Shown: in pieces, positions 20,151-26,897 of the stretch
Layout: each line of letters opens with the position of its first letter
Position numbering within the stretch: position 1 is the first letter of the stretch
Notes under the pieces: generated by a model
Database searches by the model: none
Seen by the model: only the letters and a program-made list of their open reading frames with translations
Told to the model about the DNA's origin: nothing
Source: Streptomyces colonosanans
GTDB lineage: Bacteria; Actinomycetota; Actinomycetes; Streptomycetales; Streptomycetaceae
NCBI RefSeq assembly: GCF_001866645.1
Contig: NZ_MLYP01000008.1
Span: 1 to 64,000, forward strand
Reading direction: 5' to 3'
Length of the DNA stretch: 64,000 nucleotides
Program-made: the position numbers and the translations under genes

Positions 20151-21032
20151 TCAGGGCAGCGGCCCGGCGTGGGCGGGGTCGAGGAGCGGTGCCAGCAGGT
20201 CGCCGTGCGCCTTCAGGCGGGGCGCGATGTCCGGTGCGCGGAAGACGAGATCGCCGGGGGAGGCGCAGTCAGTCACCTCCTCCCAGGTCACCGGCGTCGA
20301 CACGGTCGGTTCGGTGCGGGCGCGCAGCGTGTAGGGCGCTGCCGTCGTCTTGCGGGCAGCGTTCTGGCTCCAGTCCACGAAGACCTTCCCGGGCCGCAGG
20401 CTGCGGGTCATGCGGTGGACGACGAGGCGGGGCAGCGCCTCCTCCGCCTCCACGGCGAGGCTCTTGGCGTACTCCGCGGTCCGCCGCGACGGCGTCCGCT
20501 CCACCGCCGCCAGCAGGTGCAGCCCCTTCGAACCGGACGTTTTCGCGTACGCCTCGATGCCGTCCCGCGCTAGCCGCTCGCGCAGCCACAGGGCGACCTC
20601 GCAGCACTCGACGACGGTGGCGGGCGTGCCCGGGTCGAGGTCGAGGACCAGCCGGTCGGCCTCGTCGGGCGCGTCGACGCGCCCCTGCGGGGTGTGGAAC
20701 TCGGTGACGAGGTTGGCCGCCCACATCAGGCTCGCCAGGTCCTGGATCACCACCATGCGGGCGGGGCCCTCGGAGTGCGGCACCTGTGCCGTGGTGACCC
20801 AAGCGGGCGTACCCGGCGGCACGTTCTTGGCGAAGAAGACCTGCCCGTCCGGACCGTCCGGGTAGCGCAGGAAGGACAGCGGGCGGTCGTGGAGGTGGGG
20901 CAGCAGGGCGTCCGCGGCGGTCGCGTAGTAGTGCAGCAGCTCGCCCTTGGTGAAGCCGGTCGCGGGATGGATGACCTTCTCCAGGTTGCTGAGCGCGAGC
21001 CGTCGCCCCTCCACCTCTGTGATCGGCGTCAT
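20151..21032 (-). CDS. ligD: Non-homologous end-joining DNA polymerase (LigD polymerase domain)
   Basis: A 293-aa stand-alone archaeo-eukaryotic primase-type polymerase, like the polymerase domain of LigD. It begins LALSNLEKVIHPATGFTKGELLHYYATAAD, the classic start of this family. RLVLDLDPG supplies the catalytic DxD near residue 130, and KTSGSKGLHLLAAV and VFVDWSQNAARKT are the nucleotide-binding and C-terminal motifs. It fills or extends ends during Ku-dependent double-strand break repair. It is divergent from the interrupted ku gene, with a 22-bp tandem repeat array between them. No ligase or phosphoesterase domain is fused. Confidence 0.92.
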   Translation of the reverse strand: MTPITEVEGRRLALSNLEKVIHPATGFTKGELLHYYATAADALLPHLHDRPLSFLRYPDGPDGQVFFAKNVPPGTPAWVTTAQVPHSEGPARMVVIQDLASLMWAANLVTEFHTPQGRVDAPDEADRLVLDLDPGTPATVVECCEVALWLRERLARDGIEAYAKTSGSKGLHLLAAVERTPSRRTAEYAKSLAVEAEEALPRLVVHRMTRSLRPGKVFVDWSQNAARKTTAAPYTLRARTEPTVSTPVTWEEVTDCASPGDLVFRAPDIAPRLKAHGDLLAPLLDPAHAGPLP

Positions 21033-21084
21033 ACGATGAGAATCCCATGAAACAGGTGGATAGACGGCTAAAGCCTGCCGGAAT

Positions 21085-21252
21085 TCACTGGAATCCATCG
21101 GGGCCCGTCGAAACGCACAGGAACCAGCCGGGGTCCATCGGATCCTGCCGGAACGACCATCGAAATCTGTCGGAACGACCATCGGAACCTGTCGGAACGA
21201 CCATCGGAACCTGTCGGAACAACCATCGGAACCTGTCGGAACAACCATCGGA
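21085..21252. repeat. 22-bp tandem repeats in the ligD-ku promoter region
   Basis: Four full units and one partial unit of 22 bp (consensus GAACGACCATCGGAACCTGT plus CG) run from 21151 to 21252. Looser copies reach back to about 21085. Units 2 and 3 are identical; units 4 and 5 share a G-to-A change. They end 12 bases before the ku GTG. They are direct repeats without the spacer variation of a CRISPR. Confidence 0.85.
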
Positions 21253-21264
21253 AAGGTGCGGCAC

Positions 21265-21383
21265 GTGCGATCCATCTGGAACGGCACCATCTCCTTCGGC
21301 TTGGTCAGCATCCCGATCAAATTGGTGAACGCCGCCGAGAGCCGCTCGATCTCCTTCCGGCAGATTCATCTGGAGGACGGCGG
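21265..21383 (+). pseudogene. ku: Ku gene, 5' part (split by mobile element)
   Basis: The first 39 codons of a bacterial Ku: VRSIWNGTISFGLVSIPIKL leads into VNAAESRSISFRQIHLEDGG, a textbook Ku N-terminus. The GTG is preceded by GAAAGG at good spacing; an in-frame GTG lies 3 codons earlier. The frame stops being Ku exactly at 21383, where CGGCGG is followed by the element end TTCTCTGGGGGT. The rest of the gene resumes at 26003. Ku forms a ring on DNA ends and recruits the LigD-type polymerase encoded divergently. Confidence 0.93.
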
Positions 21384-21398
21384 TTCTCTGGGGGTGTG
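21378..21398. repeat. Left end of the ku element (core and inverted arm)
   Basis: CGGCGG target/core copy followed by TTCTCTGGGGGTGT. The arm matches the inverted right end in 11 of 12 positions. Confidence 0.8.
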
Positions 21399-21642
21399 CG
21401 GCGTACTGGTGGTGGGAGTGCGGCGTCGGCGCAGGTGAGAGCGGCCGTTTCGGGTAGTGCCAAGTGCAACAACTGTGGCGGATTGGTGTGTCCGGTGTTG
21501 TCGTTCGGCTTGGTTTCTTGGGCTTGCGACCACGCGTGATCCGAATGGCGTGGACTGGTTTTGTTCACGAGTCGTGGCTCTGGCTCAGCTTGTGTGGTGT
21601 GGCCACGCTGGGTGATCAGCGGATGGGCTCCGCGGGGCAGAG

Positions 21643-22446
21643 TCAAAATGGCGGGTCTTCGGTGTAGCCACCTGTCCAGTCGCCTGCCCAGGAAGCGCGT
21701 TCGGCCATGAGACGGGCGTGACGTTCCCGGGCTGCGATGTCGGCTGCGTTCTCCAGGTCGCTGGTGTCGTGACGCCATGCCTTCAGCGCGTCCAGGACGC
21801 GGTCTCTGTTGTGGCGGTCAGTGCTGGTGGCCAGCAGATGGCGGGCGTGGTCGACCAGCTCACCCCGGTGCGTGGTGAGAGTGGGGTGTTCTGCGAGGGG
21901 GATGGCTGCGACCAAGGCCGCGTCACGTACGTGCGCGTTGTCATGGCTGAGTAGAGGGCGGACAGCGGAGAAGATCGCCGGGCGCAGGTCTCGAAACGCG
22001 CGCATCTCCCCGTACTCGTGGAGAAACCCCTCGCCGTAATGACGTTCGCCAAGGGCGACGCACTCGTCGTCGGCGTCGTAGGCGGTGTCGCTGAGCCAGT
22101 TAAGTAGCCTCACGAGGGTCGGGTGACGCGGTGACATGTCCGCATCGTGGCCGACGTCGCCCGCCGTGATGGCCGGGTGGTCGAGGATGGCAGCGACGTA
22201 GAGCGCTACGGGCACGGTGGCTTCGTAGATGGTGTTCTGGTGGGTTACTCCCCCGAACGCGTCCTTGGCGGCGTCTGCCCTGACGACCGGGTCGGGGTCG
22301 AGGAGGCGTGCCAGCGCCGCCGGCAGGGATTCACCCGTCCCGCACGCAGTGGCGAGCGACGCCCAATCCGTACCGTCCAGAAGCGTTTGATAGTCAGGTA
22401 GCCCGTCGAGGCGAGGATTCTCGGTCTGCCTGCGGCTGTTGGTCAC
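21643..22446 (-). CDS. HEAT-like repeat protein carried by the ku element
   Basis: A 267-aa, soluble, mostly helical protein. Leucine/alanine-rich helix pairs recur (ALARLLDPDPVVRADAAKDAF, ALVAAIPLAEHPTL, LLSHDNAHVRDAALVAAI), the pattern of HEAT-type solenoids. There is no catalytic motif or signal peptide. The C-terminus ends RLMAERASWAGDWTGGYTEDPPF. It lies downstream of the element's own ku in the same direction, 113 bases away. Similar Streptomyces proteins are annotated as hypothetical; scaffold or protein-protein roles are possible. Confidence 0.62.
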   Translation of the reverse strand: MTNSRRQTENPRLDGLPDYQTLLDGTDWASLATACGTGESLPAALARLLDPDPVVRADAAKDAFGGVTHQNTIYEATVPVALYVAAILDHPAITAGDVGHDADMSPRHPTLVRLLNWLSDTAYDADDECVALGERHYGEGFLHEYGEMRAFRDLRPAIFSAVRPLLSHDNAHVRDAALVAAIPLAEHPTLTTHRGELVDHARHLLATSTDRHNRDRVLDALKAWRHDTSDLENAADIAARERHARLMAERASWAGDWTGGYTEDPPF

Positions 22447-22559
22447 AGGCGGAGGTTATAGCGTCGTCGAGCCATCTCGATGTTCACCTCTACCACACGC
22501 TGTGAGCCCGGCCGGTCATCGTCCCCACTCGGGCGGGACAGCTGCCCTGAGGTGCAGCG

Positions 22560-23603
22560 TCAGGAGACTCGTGCGGTGCGACGTCCCCTCTTGCCGGAGA
22601 GGGCTTTGAGTAGTTCCTCGCGGGTCATTGACGAACGGCCGGGGATGTCGGCGTCCGATGCGCGCTGATAGAGCTCGGCCTTGCTCAACCCTTCCAGCTC
22701 AGCCTTTGATGACTTCGGCGCCTTTCCGGCCGTGCGGTCGGCGCGCCTTTCTGCCGCTGTCTTCAACCGTGTCGGAGGACTCGTGCCCGCAGCTTCCTGC
22801 GTCCCCTTCCCGCTTCCCTTCCTTGTGGTCTGTGCTTGTTCGACGCTGGCCCGCAACGCGTCCATGAGATCGATGACGTTGGTGGAGCGCGGTGGAGCCT
22901 CGCCCTTCTCCACGGTCTGACCGGTGCGCTTGGCCTCCACGAGCTGGAGCACCTTCTCTCGGTAGGTGTCGTGGTATTCGTCCGGATTCCAGTCGATGCT
23001 CAGGGCCTCGACCAGCTGCACCGCCGTCTGCAGTTCCTTCTCGGCGACCTGAGTCTCCTCCGGGAGACTTCCGATCTCCCGATGAGGGTCGCGGACCTCG
23101 TCCGCCCAGTGCATGGTGTGCATCGCCAGGACATCGCCCTCGGCCTTCACAGCGACCAGGTACTGGTGGTTGCGCATAACGACGGTGGCTATGCCGACCT
23201 TGTTCGCCTGGGCCAGGGCGCTGTGAAGCAGAGCGTAGACCTTGGCGTACTCCTTGCCCTTGGGGGCCAGGTAGTAGGCCTTGTCGAAGAAGACCGGCTC
23301 GACCTGGTCCAGGTCGACGAACCCGGTGATCTCCATCGACTTGGACTGGCCAGGGGCGATCTCGTCCAGTTCGCCTGGCTCGACGATCACATACTCGTCC
23401 CCGATGTCGAAGCCTTTGACAATCTCCTCCATGGGGACTTCCTCGCCGGTGCGCTCGTTGACGCGCTTGTTGCGCACTCGGTCGGACGTTCCACGTTGGA
23501 GCTGGTTGAAGCGAATCGTGTGGCTCTCCGTGGCGGTGAACAGCTGCACCGGCAGGGCGACGAGCCCGAATGAGAGAGCACCGCTCCAGACCGCTCGGGC
23601 CAT
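22560..23603 (-). CDS. ku: Ku protein, element-borne second copy
   Basis: A complete 347-aa bacterial Ku. It starts MARAVWSGALSFGLVALPVQL, has the beta-barrel and bridge region (EPVFFDKAYYLAPKGKEYAKVY, LAQANKVGIATVVMR) and ends with a Lys-rich tail. A SAP-like helix-extension-helix follows (LSKAELYQRASDADIPGRSSMTREELLKALSG). AGGAGGTGGGAG lies just before the ATG, so it should be well translated. It differs clearly from the interrupted host copy, which has a KTAAKK-rich tail instead of the SAP-like end. It can probably replace the function destroyed by the insertion (inference). Confidence 0.93.
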   Translation of the reverse strand: MARAVWSGALSFGLVALPVQLFTATESHTIRFNQLQRGTSDRVRNKRVNERTGEEVPMEEIVKGFDIGDEYVIVEPGELDEIAPGQSKSMEITGFVDLDQVEPVFFDKAYYLAPKGKEYAKVYALLHSALAQANKVGIATVVMRNHQYLVAVKAEGDVLAMHTMHWADEVRDPHREIGSLPEETQVAEKELQTAVQLVEALSIDWNPDEYHDTYREKVLQLVEAKRTGQTVEKGEAPPRSTNVIDLMDALRASVEQAQTTRKGSGKGTQEAAGTSPPTRLKTAAERRADRTAGKAPKSSKAELEGLSKAELYQRASDADIPGRSSMTREELLKALSGKRGRRTARVS

Positions 23604-23696
23604 GGCCTCCCACCTCCTGTTTTCCCATGGCACCTCCGTCGGCCGCAGATCGCATCCCGGCATGCGCCACCTGGATGGTTGGGAGGGGACGTGCGG

Positions 23697-24230
23697 TCAG
23701 CGATGGGCCTGGTTGAGTGAGCGGGTCAGCTCTCGGTTGGCCGCACGTGCGGCCGCTAGTTCCTCTGTTCGATCTTCGAGTTGGCTTTGGAGTTCCACCA
23801 TCCGCTGTTCGAGGGTGGTGATCTGCCGCTGGAGGTGGTCGATATCGGTGGGCGCGCCGAGGCCGGAGTCGCGCCAGGCCTGTTCACCGAGCTGTTGGGA
23901 CAGCCGGTTCTCCAGTTGCCGGACTCGGGCTGTGAGCCGGGCGTTGCGCTCCAGGGCGTTCGCCAGGTCGGCTTGCAGGGAGGCTCTGCTGACCTGGGCG
24001 TGTCCTTCGCCGGACGGCGGTGTCGTTGCTGCGGTGTGGATGAGTTGCAGAAGGTCGCGGTGTCGGTAGAGAAAGGAGCGGTCGACTCCGGCGGCCCGGG
24101 CGATGCCGGAGACGGTGAGATCTCCGCCCTCTCTGACCGCGGCGCTGAGGACCTTCTCGACTCGCTGGTGTCGGCGTGCTGAGTCCCCCCGTCGCCCCTC
24201 AGCCATGGGGAGAGTGTTCTTGCTGGTCAC
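23697..24230 (-). CDS. DUF6262 / TnpC-like coiled-coil protein
   Basis: A 177-aa protein with an N-terminal helix-turn-helix-like segment (RVEKVLSAAVREGGDLTVSGIARAAGVDRSFLYRHRDLL) and a long C-terminal coiled coil (VRQLENRLSQQL to LAAARAANRELTRSLNQ). This matches the DUF6262 family found beside tyrosine recombinases in Tn554-like elements, where TnpC affects transposition orientation and efficiency. It overlaps the upstream recombinase frame by 4 nt. Confidence 0.82.
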   Translation of the reverse strand: MTSKNTLPMAEGRRGDSARRHQRVEKVLSAAVREGGDLTVSGIARAAGVDRSFLYRHRDLLQLIHTAATTPPSGEGHAQVSRASLQADLANALERNARLTARVRQLENRLSQQLGEQAWRDSGLGAPTDIDHLQRQITTLEQRMVELQSQLEDRTEELAAARAANRELTRSLNQAHR

Positions 24231-25345
24231 AGTGGCCTTTCTGGTCGCAGATCGGGGAGAGGCTGGCGGACACGGGGCATCCCCAGCAGGACGCTTTGCC
24301 GACCGCGACGGACCACGGACACGGCCTCCTCGACCTCGGCACGCTGGCTTGCGTCGAGGTCGTCCAGGCCGTCCTTGACTCGTTTGATGAGTCGTCTCAC
24401 ACGGCGGATCTCCTCGTCCGACGGCATTGCCTCGGCCTTGGCCCAGTCATCCGCGTCCAGCGCGGCGGCGATCCGCTCGCGGTTGCGCAGCAGGTCAGCG
24501 AGGTATGCCTCCAAGTCGGGCAGGTAGGAGATGTCAGTACGGAAATGACCGCAGCCCACACAGCGGAATCTGACGGGACAGTCGTGTCCACCCGCTGCCA
24601 CGTTCGACGGCTCGGTGCAGACACCGTAGGGAACGGCGACCTCGCCGACGGCCCGACGAGCGTGCTCGGAGTCGAGCAGCTCCTTGGCCTGCCGCCAGAT
24701 GCGCCTGCCGTGCCGGTCGAACTGCATCTCGGTGACGCGGTCGACGGCCTCGCATCGCCGCTCTTCGGTGACCCGGTAGTAGGTCTGAGTGGTGTCCAGG
24801 CGCCGGTGATCCATCAAGGCTCTGAGGACATCGACGGCGACACCGGCGTCCGCGTGTCGCTGACAGTAAGTGTGCCGGTACGCGTAAAGGAAGATCTTGG
24901 ACTTGTCGAAGGGCATCATCCTGGTGACCGGCTGACCGTCCAACTCGACACGGGTGGGGACCAGGAACTCCGGCAGCGACCGGATCCACTCGCGGTGGCG
25001 GCCGGAGAGCCATCCCGGCGCGATAGGCTTCCGGCCGTGTGGGTTGGCCACCCGCGTGGGCAACAGCATCAACTGGTCGGTCGGTGTGCTGGGGAAGTCG
25101 GCGCGGATCAGTTCCTGCTGTCTGGTGATCACGCCAGCCGTGGCCTGGGAAATCGGTAGCCGGCGTCCGTGGCGGTTGGCCTTGTAGTTGTCGTAGATCA
25201 GCACGTGCTGTCCGTCGGCGTCCTGCTTGAGGCAGTCCCAGCGCAGCTGACAGATCTCCTGGGGCCGCCTCCCGGTGTCGATCAGCAATTCGACGGCCAC
25301 CCGGTTCTCGTTGCCGTTACGGGTTCGGCCGACCAGCGAAGGCAA
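24227..25345 (-). pseudogene. Tyrosine recombinase, C-terminal part (TnpB-like), N-terminally truncated
   Basis: About 370 codons of a tyrosine recombinase catalytic region. LLIDTGRRPQEICQLRWDCL holds the first catalytic Arg. FLYAYRHTYCQRHADAGVAVDVLRALMDHRRLDTTQTYYRVT holds the RH..H..Y set, with the nucleophile in TYYRVT. A Cys-rich zinc-like patch (CPVRFRCVGCGHF) follows, as in Tn554 TnpB-like proteins. The N-terminal half is missing: at 25346 the sequence changes abruptly to an IS3-family remnant. Probably inactive. Confidence 0.85.
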
Positions 25346-25347
25346 CT

Positions 25348-25631
25348 ATTCAAGCATCCATGGGCTCGGTCGGTGACTCGTTCGACAACGCCCTGGGGAG
25401 AACCTGTGGATGCTGATCAAGACCGAGTGCATCCGAGGCCGCGTCTTCGCGACCAGAGCCGAGGCGAACCTCGCGCTCTTCGAGTACATCGACGGCTTCT
25501 ATAACCCTCGCCGCATCCAGAAACGGCTCGGCTACCTCAGCCCGATCGAGTTCGAGGAGAAGCACTACGCCAACCAGGCAGCGGCCGAACCAGTGAACCT
25601 GAAACCCCGCCAACCCGCCCTGACCAGCTAG
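25348..25631 (+). pseudogene. IS3-family transposase, C-terminal remnant
   Basis: Decayed end of an IS3-family DDE transposase: ASMGSVGDSFDNAL, then (after a frameshift near 25399) WMLIKTECIRGR, ALFEYIDGFYNPRRIQKRLGY and LSPIEFEEKHYA. The frameshift and lack of an upstream half show it is dead. It sits exactly between the two recombinase fragments. Confidence 0.88.
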
Positions 25632-25859
25632 TCAGCCACTCCCGCGCAGCGGGGGAACCTCATCTCGTCCAGTCGCCGTACACCAGCGTAGAAACAGCGC
25701 GATCGCTTCGGCGTACGCCTTCGTCGTCGACTCGGCCCGGTCCTTGCTCAACCTGAGGCCCCGTAAGTACCGGTCGGCTTCGTTCACCACCTGTACTTCG
25801 GCATCGACCACTGTCCAGTACGCAGTACCGGACGGCATCCGGACCGGAAAAGCACGCAC
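25632..25859 (-). pseudogene. Tyrosine recombinase, N-terminal fragment (TnpA-like)
   Basis: About 70 codons matching the start and core-binding domain of a TnpA-type recombinase: VRMPSGTAYWTVVDAEVQVV then YLRGLRLSKDRAESTTKAYAEAIALFLRWC. The GTG start follows GAGGGGATC. The protein is cut off after TGRDEV by the IS3 remnant, so TnpA's catalytic half and TnpB's N-terminal half are lost. Confidence 0.8.
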
Positions 25860-25915
25860 CTGTTGATCCCCTCACTTCACTCCACGGACAGAAAGCAACG
25901 GTCCACTACGGAGCA

Positions 25916-26002
25916 ACACCCCCAGAGAACCGTCGCGGCACGCTCAACGAGGAAGTGTGCTACGACGTCACGCCACACGTTCGGACCCCCGGAGAACGGC
26001 GG
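25916..26002. repeat. Right end of the ku element, with a second internal arm copy
   Basis: ACACCCCCAGAGAA (25916-25929) is a perfect 14-bp inverted match to the left arm. ACCCCCGGAGAA (25985-25996) is a second, 11/12 match directly abutting CGGCGG. The outer copy is the true boundary because the Ku reading frame resumes there. Confidence 0.75.
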
Positions 26003-26897
26003 CCGCATCCGCTACCACAAGTTCTGCGAGCTGGAGGGCCGTGAGGTCACGCACGGGGAGATCGGCAAGGGATACGAGGACGCGGACGGCTCCATCATCC
26101 CGATCACGGAGGAGGAGCTGGCCCATCTGCCGATCCCGACGGCCCGGACGATCGAGATCGTGGCCTTCGTCCCGGCCGACCGGATCGACCCGCTCCATAT
26201 GGACAGCGCCTACTACCTGGCCGCGAGCGGTGCCCCGGCCGCCAAGCCGTACGCGCTGCTGCGCGAGGCCCTCAAGCGCAGCAACAAGGTCGCCATCGCG
26301 AAGTTCGCGCTGCGTGGCCGCGAGCGCCTGGGCATGCTGCGGGTGGTCGAGGACGCCATCGCCCTGCACGGGCTGCTGTGGCCGGACGAGGTCCGCGCAC
26401 CCGAGGGCATCGCCCCGGACACGAGGGTCACGGTCAACGACAAGGAACTCGACCTGGCACACGCCCTCATGGACACCCTCGGCGAGGTCGACCTGAGCGA
26501 CCTGCACGACGAGTACCGCGAGGCCGTCGAGGAGCTGATCGCCGCGAAGGCCGCCGGCGAGGCACCTCCCGAGGTCCCCGAACCGGCGACGGGCGGCACG
26601 GTCCTCGACCTGATGGCCGCCCTGGAGAAGAGCGTGCGCGCGGCGAAGGAGTCGAGGGGCGAGGAAGCCGGTGAGGCGGGCAAGGCGGCCGAGGTCAGAC
26701 GTCTGCCGGCCCGCAAGAGCGCGCGGAGGGCACCGAAGGCGGCCGGGGGCGGCGAGCAGGCGCCGGCGGCGAGGAAGACGGCGGCCAAGAAGACCGCGGC
26801 GAAGAAGACGACCGCGAAGTCGGCGGCCCCGGCAAAGAAGACGGCGGCCCAGAAGACCGCCGGGAAGAAGACGGCAGCACGCAAGCGCACGGCCTGA
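25997..26897 (+). pseudogene. ku: Ku gene, 3' part (resumes after the mobile element)
   Basis: After one copy of the CGGCGG repeat the Ku sequence continues exactly where it stopped at 21383: GRIRYHKFCELEGREVTHGE, then the core (MDSAYYLAASGAPAAKPYALL, LHGLLWPDEVRAP) and a low-complexity Lys/Ala/Thr tail (repeats of KTAAKK) typical of Streptomyces Ku. Joined to the 5' part (21265-21383 plus 26003-26897) it is 338 codons including the stop, without frameshift. As found, the frame runs on upstream into element DNA and has no proper start. Confidence 0.92.

Follow-up and report, generated by a model that had tools for sequence, protein, structure and literature searches.

Prophages e14 and 21, which sit in icd, restore the end of the gene that they interrupt. 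The element considered here, a Tn554-type transposon with a TnpA-TnpB-TnpC module inside the core kuA gene of Streptomyces colonosanans, would likewise compensate for the gene it enters, but where e14 and 21 rebuild the end of the same gene, this transposon supplies a whole, distant paralogue in the form of a ku gene of its own. It lies in a 64,000-nucleotide stretch of contig NZ_MLYP01000008.1 (G000:C145), hereafter the window, to whose positions all coordinates refer; the genome is a draft of 7.0 Mb in 166 contigs with a completeness of 99.98.

A close precedent is Tn552-II of Staphylococcus aureus, a site-specific tnpABC element that carries a homologue of the gene it interrupts; its authors compare it with Tn554 and suggest that the target-gene-like gene may rescue target function (Wan et al. 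2025, PMC12486829). Target-gene-like rescue cargo was already proposed in 2025, then, for a Tn554 relative in Staphylococcus, and the ku case is a new and better replicated variant. Tn552-II has a YolD-like chromosomal target, an internal att copy in tgl and a 7-bp att (PMC12486829), whereas the ku element has a 6-bp core and a whole, distant Ku as cargo, lacks the target motif in that cargo, is found in four species, and comes with evidence that its ku is the sole intact copy. The literature was searched for a ku carried by an element inside ku, for Ku in connection with Tn554, and for carriage of a copy of the disrupted gene, and no ku-in-ku report was found; for transposons with a target-gene-like gene, the paper on Tn552-II was the sole result.

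Other relatives share the machinery. Like the ku element, the Tn554-like elements of actinobacteria have a short and a long (611-828 aa, amino acids) tyrosine recombinase and a TnpC-related gene, and pRHL3 is listed among them (PMC3414803); unlike it, neither a ku target nor ku cargo is named in the section of that paper on Tn554-related recombinases. The annotation of pRHL3 of Rhodococcus RHA1 gives the order recombinase-recombinase-DUF6262, and the TnpB of the S. diastatochromogenes element (L044, below) is 51.5% identical over 98% to the TnpB on pRHL3; kinship with Tn554 is drawn through this published element, S. aureus Tn554 itself not having been compared directly. Tn6188 and the other radC Tn554-like transposons resemble the ku element in using one site in a conserved gene and in their 6-bp junctions, but they carry resistance or tolerance cargo, with no radC copy mentioned in the available text of the report, where DNA repair is given as one suggested role of radC (PMC3788773). 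Strand-biased circularizing integrative elements also combine one ordinary and one large recombinase with a 6-bp footprint, which on insertion at a new site is placed on its right as a copy of the sequence left of the donor; they differ in having an extra Tfp gene, in belonging to Gammaproteobacteria and in being set apart from Tn554 (PMC10214605). Transfer of a hexamer or heptamer from the left flank of the donor to the right flank of the new insertion is described for related elements (PMC10214605, PMC12486829).

In the window, kuA is split by a 4,613-bp insert (21384-25996). The insert is a genuine Tn554-type transposon, of a kind that targets ku repeatedly and brings a ku along. We consider it probable (roughly 0.7) that a transposon of this type targets a conserved ku motif and that one of its sublineages brings a target-free ku, which replaces the host kuA. 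A preliminary description of this DNA, made from its letters, had proposed that a host ku is interrupted by an insert bearing an intact ku, and both parts of that proposal hold. The halves at 21265-21383 and 25997-26897 are one gene: dropping 21384-26002, that is, the insert plus one core, leaves a single open Ku frame of 338 residues, counted from the residue preceding the GTG start, and the C-terminal open reading frame (ORF) by itself scores 128 bits with PF02735 and 221.2 bits with TIGR02772 (cut-off 150). The insert contains an intact 347-aa Ku with a strong ribosome site, AGGAGG, which scores 301.5 bits with TIGR02772 on its 367-aa ORF (curated cut-off 150). The deletion proposed earlier is correct, but the limits of the insert had to be amended, since the element ends at 25996 and 25997-26002 is the second core, CGGCGG; of the different C-terminus ascribed to the cargo Ku, the label 'SAP-like' fell away, the only match there being a sub-threshold one to Rho_N (16.8 bits, cut-off 24.9). 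In Streptomyces the ku that adjoins polK is kuA, the core and all but ubiquitous member of a kuA/kuB/kuC set, and the split gene in the window is this same kuA beside polK; the available passages of the paper that describes the set give no account of a mobile element, and in its main text 'transposon' occurs once and 'mobile' and 'integrase' zero times (PMC5124664).

Insertions at the same kuA codon, each with a ku inside, were found in S. diastatochromogenes (G033; L044), S. bicolor (L064) and Streptomyces sp. MUM 203J (L067). Because the same junction is present in three other species, the arrangement in the window is not due to chance, and the earlier proposal of a tyrosine-recombinase element that lands in ku and carries another ku is borne out. 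The rejoined kuA frames of L044, L064 and L067 are also open (356, 352 and 354 residues), a LigD-type polymerase gene adjoins the split ku in all three, and their elements have open tnpA and tnpB frames and a full-length tnpC. Three further elements lie in other ku genes. Those of G101 (L045) and S. coeruleorubidus (L065) occupy the same codon of a non-kuA ku, the split gene of L065 being frameshifted so that no rejoined frame results; that of Streptomyces sp. CB02959 (G175; L046) is degraded, with a ku C-terminal part at its right end and a left end that was searched for and not found. Within the stretches examined, ku cargo is present in 4/4 kuA insertions versus 0/3 insertions in other ku genes (L045, L065, L046).

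These seven are all the ku-targeting elements found. A scan of an 84,980-species collection with the TnpB alignment returned nine loci, a lower bound because the scan used two peptide patterns, and five of them are ku cases (L044, L046, L064, L065 and L067), to which the G101 element and the window are added. Within the genus, 26 of 392 genomes have a strong match to the TnpB alignment, and of these G000, G033, G101 and G175 belong to the ku group. In a 293-genome sample of the order, 14 genomes have a strong match, all in one of nine genera, and no ku-targeter outside Streptomyces was found there; two of the 14, G473 and G523, are apparently the S. coeruleorubidus and S. bicolor records. A left-junction query matched in 267 of 295 genomes of the genus, and among the matches listed, those that begin with the start of kuA stop between query positions 108 and 129 (the junction is at 128), with the sole exception of G033, which reaches 149, that is, into the element. 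Uninterrupted ku genes with this junction therefore exist in congeners, a point on which the preliminary description had made its case depend. The same ku codon is used in 6/6 elements with a known left end, and the right flank of the seventh, L046, is also ku. The 6-bp cores are equal on both sides in five of the six elements with both ends known; the odd one, L045, has CATGGC on the left and CGGAGG on the right, and since the latter fits a ku codon pattern, a ku gene may have served as the donor site too.

The motif at the site is written GAGGAC-NNN-GG-N-CG-NN-T-N-CG. In a slightly looser form, with C allowed for T, it occurs in 32 of 33 uninterrupted kuA genes, and at the occupied non-kuA site of L045, GC takes the place of GG. 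It is found in none of the four cargo ku genes, even with two mismatches. All four have an AGGAGG ribosome site, and their ratios of nonsynonymous to synonymous divergence (dN/dS, by simple Nei-Gojobori) are 0.145-0.236 in six pairs, versus a median of 0.314 for 40 random uninterrupted kuA pairs; cargo ku is under purifying selection in the four species. On the Ku tree the four cargo proteins fall in a clade well apart from all kuA proteins, with a branch length of 2.16 changes per column between them; in this tree, which contains no named KuB, the cargo clade is placed as outside the kuA group. Three lineages form a polytomy there: the L044 cargo, the cargo of the window, L064 and L067, and a Ku from the chromosome of G051. 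The gain of the cargo is taken as one event. At the DNA level L044 and L064 are 83% alike in cargo ku and 72% in tnpC, which hints at recombination of cargo between elements. Around position 1053190 of G051:C1 (L161), the only Ku match of that genome is of the cargo type and adjoins a LigD-type polymerase gene; no kuA start match was obtained from G051 in the left-junction search.

Whether the host retains another Ku was followed with Pfam models, which were used for Ku and ligase counts alike. In each of the four genomes with a kuA insertion, the Pfam Ku search found a single intact ku, that of the cargo. In the window genome a third ku (L003, G000:C107:39164-39574) is disrupted by a TGA within the frame and by a change of frame; over 178 aa it shares 61% identity with the cargo Ku, and no tnpABC match was present within the 15 kb examined around it. 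G033 has an extra Ku fragment in a 116-aa frame, and S. bicolor and MUM 203J have no Ku match beyond the cargo and the split parts. In each of G101, S. coeruleorubidus and CB02959 the search found one or more further full-length Ku matches free of stops. By the overall pattern, it seems somewhat more probable than otherwise that the cargo Ku compensates for the broken kuA.

The history of the insertions was read from a kuA DNA tree of 33 uninterrupted and 4 split genes; trees and counts omit 7 of the 40 kuA loci retrieved, which the motif script missed. A single ancient insertion, passed down by vertical descent to all four species, would explain the identical site and the conserved polymerase neighbour. 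Against this, a single clade of the four is rejected (p = 2.4e-7), the split state needing four changes; and when L067, which is on a long branch of unsure placement, is taken out, the clade of the remaining three is rejected as well (p = 1.9e-5), with three changes needed. The kuA genes of the window, L044 and L064 each pair, with strong support, with an uninterrupted kuA. Tested as sister pairs, five of the six combinations of split genes are rejected (p 0.018 or less), and only L044 with L067 is retained (p = 0.13). The elements are, moreover, more alike than the host genes in three of the four: among the window, L064 and L067, DNA identity is 90.9-93.5% in the TnpB part, 74.6-84.4% in kuA and 75.2-81.6% in the polymerase gene. 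Vertical inheritance of one insertion, which we regard as very improbable, is thus rejected on the kuA tree for the four as a group, the L044/L067 pair excepted. Because the clade tests reject a single origin and the L044/L067 pair alone is compatible with sharing, at least three independent insertions into kuA are supported, and horizontal spread with separate insertions fits best. That the kuA halves are still open in all four suggests that the insertions are not old; there is more doubt for L067, since dN/dS of its split kuA against the four nearest uninterrupted genes is 0.33-0.41, compared with 0.15-0.31 in the other three. A more trivial origin, with the inner ku copied from the outer one or contigs misjoined, might be entertained for a draft assembly of 166 contigs, but the same structure in three other assemblies and the long branch between the cargo and host Ku clades leave it next to no probability; local duplication is rejected by the Ku tree, and the insert ku is not a duplicate of the host gene, as the preliminary description had also required.

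The cargo ku might instead be an ordinary passenger: the transposon would target a conserved motif, loss of Ku would be tolerated, and one lineage would have picked up an accessory ku of a type that other Streptomyces also have. Several observations fit this account, among them the single TnpB group of the cargo-bearing elements and the three ku-targeting elements that show no ku cargo, both taken up below. No Ku was found in 4/121 genomes of the genus sample, and Ku proteins of the cargo clade occur in G051 and G086, where no tnpABC match was present within the 18 kb examined. Other observations fit it poorly: in four species the cargo ku has stayed intact and evolves under purifying selection, the other cargo gene of the window is unmatched in the other three elements, and 0/10 loci with other targets show a ku or a copy of the target within the stretches examined. 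We hold the passenger account unlikely, though with appreciable weight. A number of points tell against replacement of kuA by a target-free ku. The cargo-bearing elements form one TnpB group, so the 4/4 association with cargo cannot be counted as four separate tests; cargo seems dispensable for three ku-targeting elements; a single insertion could underlie both L044 and L067; and the L044 element is no closer to the others than the host genes are (identities to the window of 83.9% in TnpB, 73.4% in TnpC, 74.8% in cargo, 81.8% in kuA and 78.5% in the polymerase gene). Loss of kuA in S. ambofaciens is tolerated, with only 2-4 fold higher sensitivity (PMC5124664). The window genome is the only one of the 121 in the genus sample without an ATP-dependent ligase domain by Pfam, and a protein query with that domain from a congener gave no match in it, whereas the three other ku-in-ku genomes have 3-5 ATP-dependent ligase matches each. 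Because no such ligase is detectable, working end joining is doubtful in the window genome, and the earlier supposition that the element keeps end joining active is not supported there. A reversible switch, in which precise excision restores kuA under some conditions, would draw on the equal cores that flank the element, on the open rejoined frame in the four kuA cases and on the open recombinase genes of L044, L064 and L067; it has, however, not been formally examined if a Tn554-related element leaves an empty site (PMC10214605), and a switch is not expected of the crippled window copy, so that we consider it improbable.

That copy can be understood by comparison with L044, whose module has open frames for TnpA (404 aa), TnpB (828 aa) and TnpC (176 aa), with PF00589 in both recombinases and DUF6262. 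Of these, the window copy has TnpC complete, but TnpA and TnpB only in part. Its TnpB fragment is 92% identical to the L044 protein. At the IS3 remnant, ~320 bp stand in the position of ~2.3 kb of tnpA-tnpB in L044, so that the remnant has replaced the 5' half of tnpB along with most of tnpA. Because most of both recombinases is lost, the window copy is taken to be immobile, that is, unable to move itself. Leftward from the right end the order is tnpA fragment, IS3 remnant, tnpB C-terminal part, tnpC, cargo ku and a HEAT-like gene, as located in the table. The terminal inverted repeats, TTCTCTGGGGG and CCCCCGGAGAA, agree at 10/11 positions, and an inner repeat of the right-end motif is also present 67-68 bp inside the end in L044, L045, L064, L065 and L067; the right end of the L064 element has T as its last base. 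No match to the HEAT-like cargo gene was obtained by tblastn from the L044, L064 and L067 elements. Partial relatives of it, 75-83% identical, occur at L057 and L058, in two other genomes of the genus.

Features of the split kuA locus and its transposon (positions in the window)
Feature	Position	Strand	Basis
LigD-type primase-polymerase gene (polK type), divergent neighbour of kuA	20151..21050	-	PF21686 269.8 bits
22-bp tandem repeat, 5.4 copies, polK-kuA intergenic	21135..21253	.	repeat analysis
Host kuA, N-terminal part	21265..21383	+	runs on into C-terminal part after insert removal
Left 6-bp core CGGCGG (target sequence)	21378..21383	+	junction comparison
Left terminal inverted repeat TTCTCTGGGGG	21384..21394	+	end comparison
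Cargo gene, 267 aa, weak HEAT-repeat match	21643..22446	-	PF13513 22.4 bits, sub-threshold (cut-off 27)
Cargo ku, 347 aa, intact, AGGAGG ribosome site	22560..23603	-	PF02735 169.4 bits, TIGR02772 301.5 bits
tnpC (DUF6262), third transposition-module gene	23697..24230	-	PF19776 36.8 bits (cut-off 29)
tnpB (long tyrosine recombinase), C-terminal 372 aa only	24227..25345	-	PF00589 46.9 bits
IS3-family transposase remnant, left limit approximate; ORF 25410-25631	25346..25631	+	PF13333, NF033516 C-terminal match
tnpA, N-terminal fragment only	25632..25859	-	74% identical over 66 aa to intact L044 TnpA
Inner repeat of right-end motif, 67 bp inside end	25919..25929	+	end-motif search
Right terminal inverted repeat CCCCCGGAGAA	25986..25996	+	end comparison
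Right 6-bp core CGGCGG	25997..26002	+	junction comparison
Host kuA, C-terminal part, open to stop	25997..26897	+	PF02735 128 bits

On the TnpB tree the ku-targeters form one group (support 100/100), with the cargo-bearing kuA elements as a group inside it (100/99), and the target gene tracks the TnpB clade wherever the target is known. The preliminary description had envisaged a self-compensating family aimed at genes of nonhomologous end joining. This picture is too broad, for a single TnpB clade targets ku and sister clades lie in dprA (L050), an S24/LexA-like gene (L051), whiB (L053), an AAA_33 kinase gene (L047, and L069 by likeness to it), an IS3 transposase gene (L061) and probably an ATP-dependent ligase gene (L052 and L071, both below the Pfam cut-off); two further loci, L049 and L062, have targets without assignment. 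By tblastn, neither a ku nor a second copy of the target is present at any of these ten loci within the stretches examined, L071 being cut by a contig end before the cargo and left ends having been found for some loci only. On these ten loci, and within those stretches, self-compensation as a general property of the whole family is rejected. Loci L048, L054, L059, L060, L063, L070 and L072 stand outside this test; among them L048 (G241:C54) is a 5.2-kb contig whose two ends lie within a few bases of those of a Tn554-type element, which may be present in multiple copies or as a circle. Sister targets such as dprA, the LexA-like gene and the probable ligase, taken with ku and with radC among Tn554-like elements, hint at a bias toward genes of DNA repair or processing.

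In the mechanism that we propose, TnpA and TnpB, with TnpC, would recognise the conserved ku coding motif GAGGAC-NNN-GG, or GC in its last position pair, and the element would insert next to the 6-bp core, splitting ku. One sublineage would carry an intact ku from a distant Ku clade in which the motif is absent, so that a landing in kuA would both remove the host Ku and supply that of the element. The cargo ku itself would not easily be hit, that is, it would be resistant to insertion, and its product, if expressed, would compensate. Somewhat short of even odds, in our view, is the further step that a lineage specialised on ku removes the core Ku and substitutes its own target-free Ku, whereupon the Ku function of the host would depend on the transposon, which would be hard to cure.

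For annotation, the finding carries the warning that a 'split' ku may hold a substitute inside the split. For the biology of these transposons, it provides a second, better replicated case in which an element may break the target and bring a spare, and places the idea in a non-pathogenic laboratory genus where it can be tested. For Streptomyces it suggests that a core DNA-repair protein has in nature been replaced, more than once, by the version of a mobile element.

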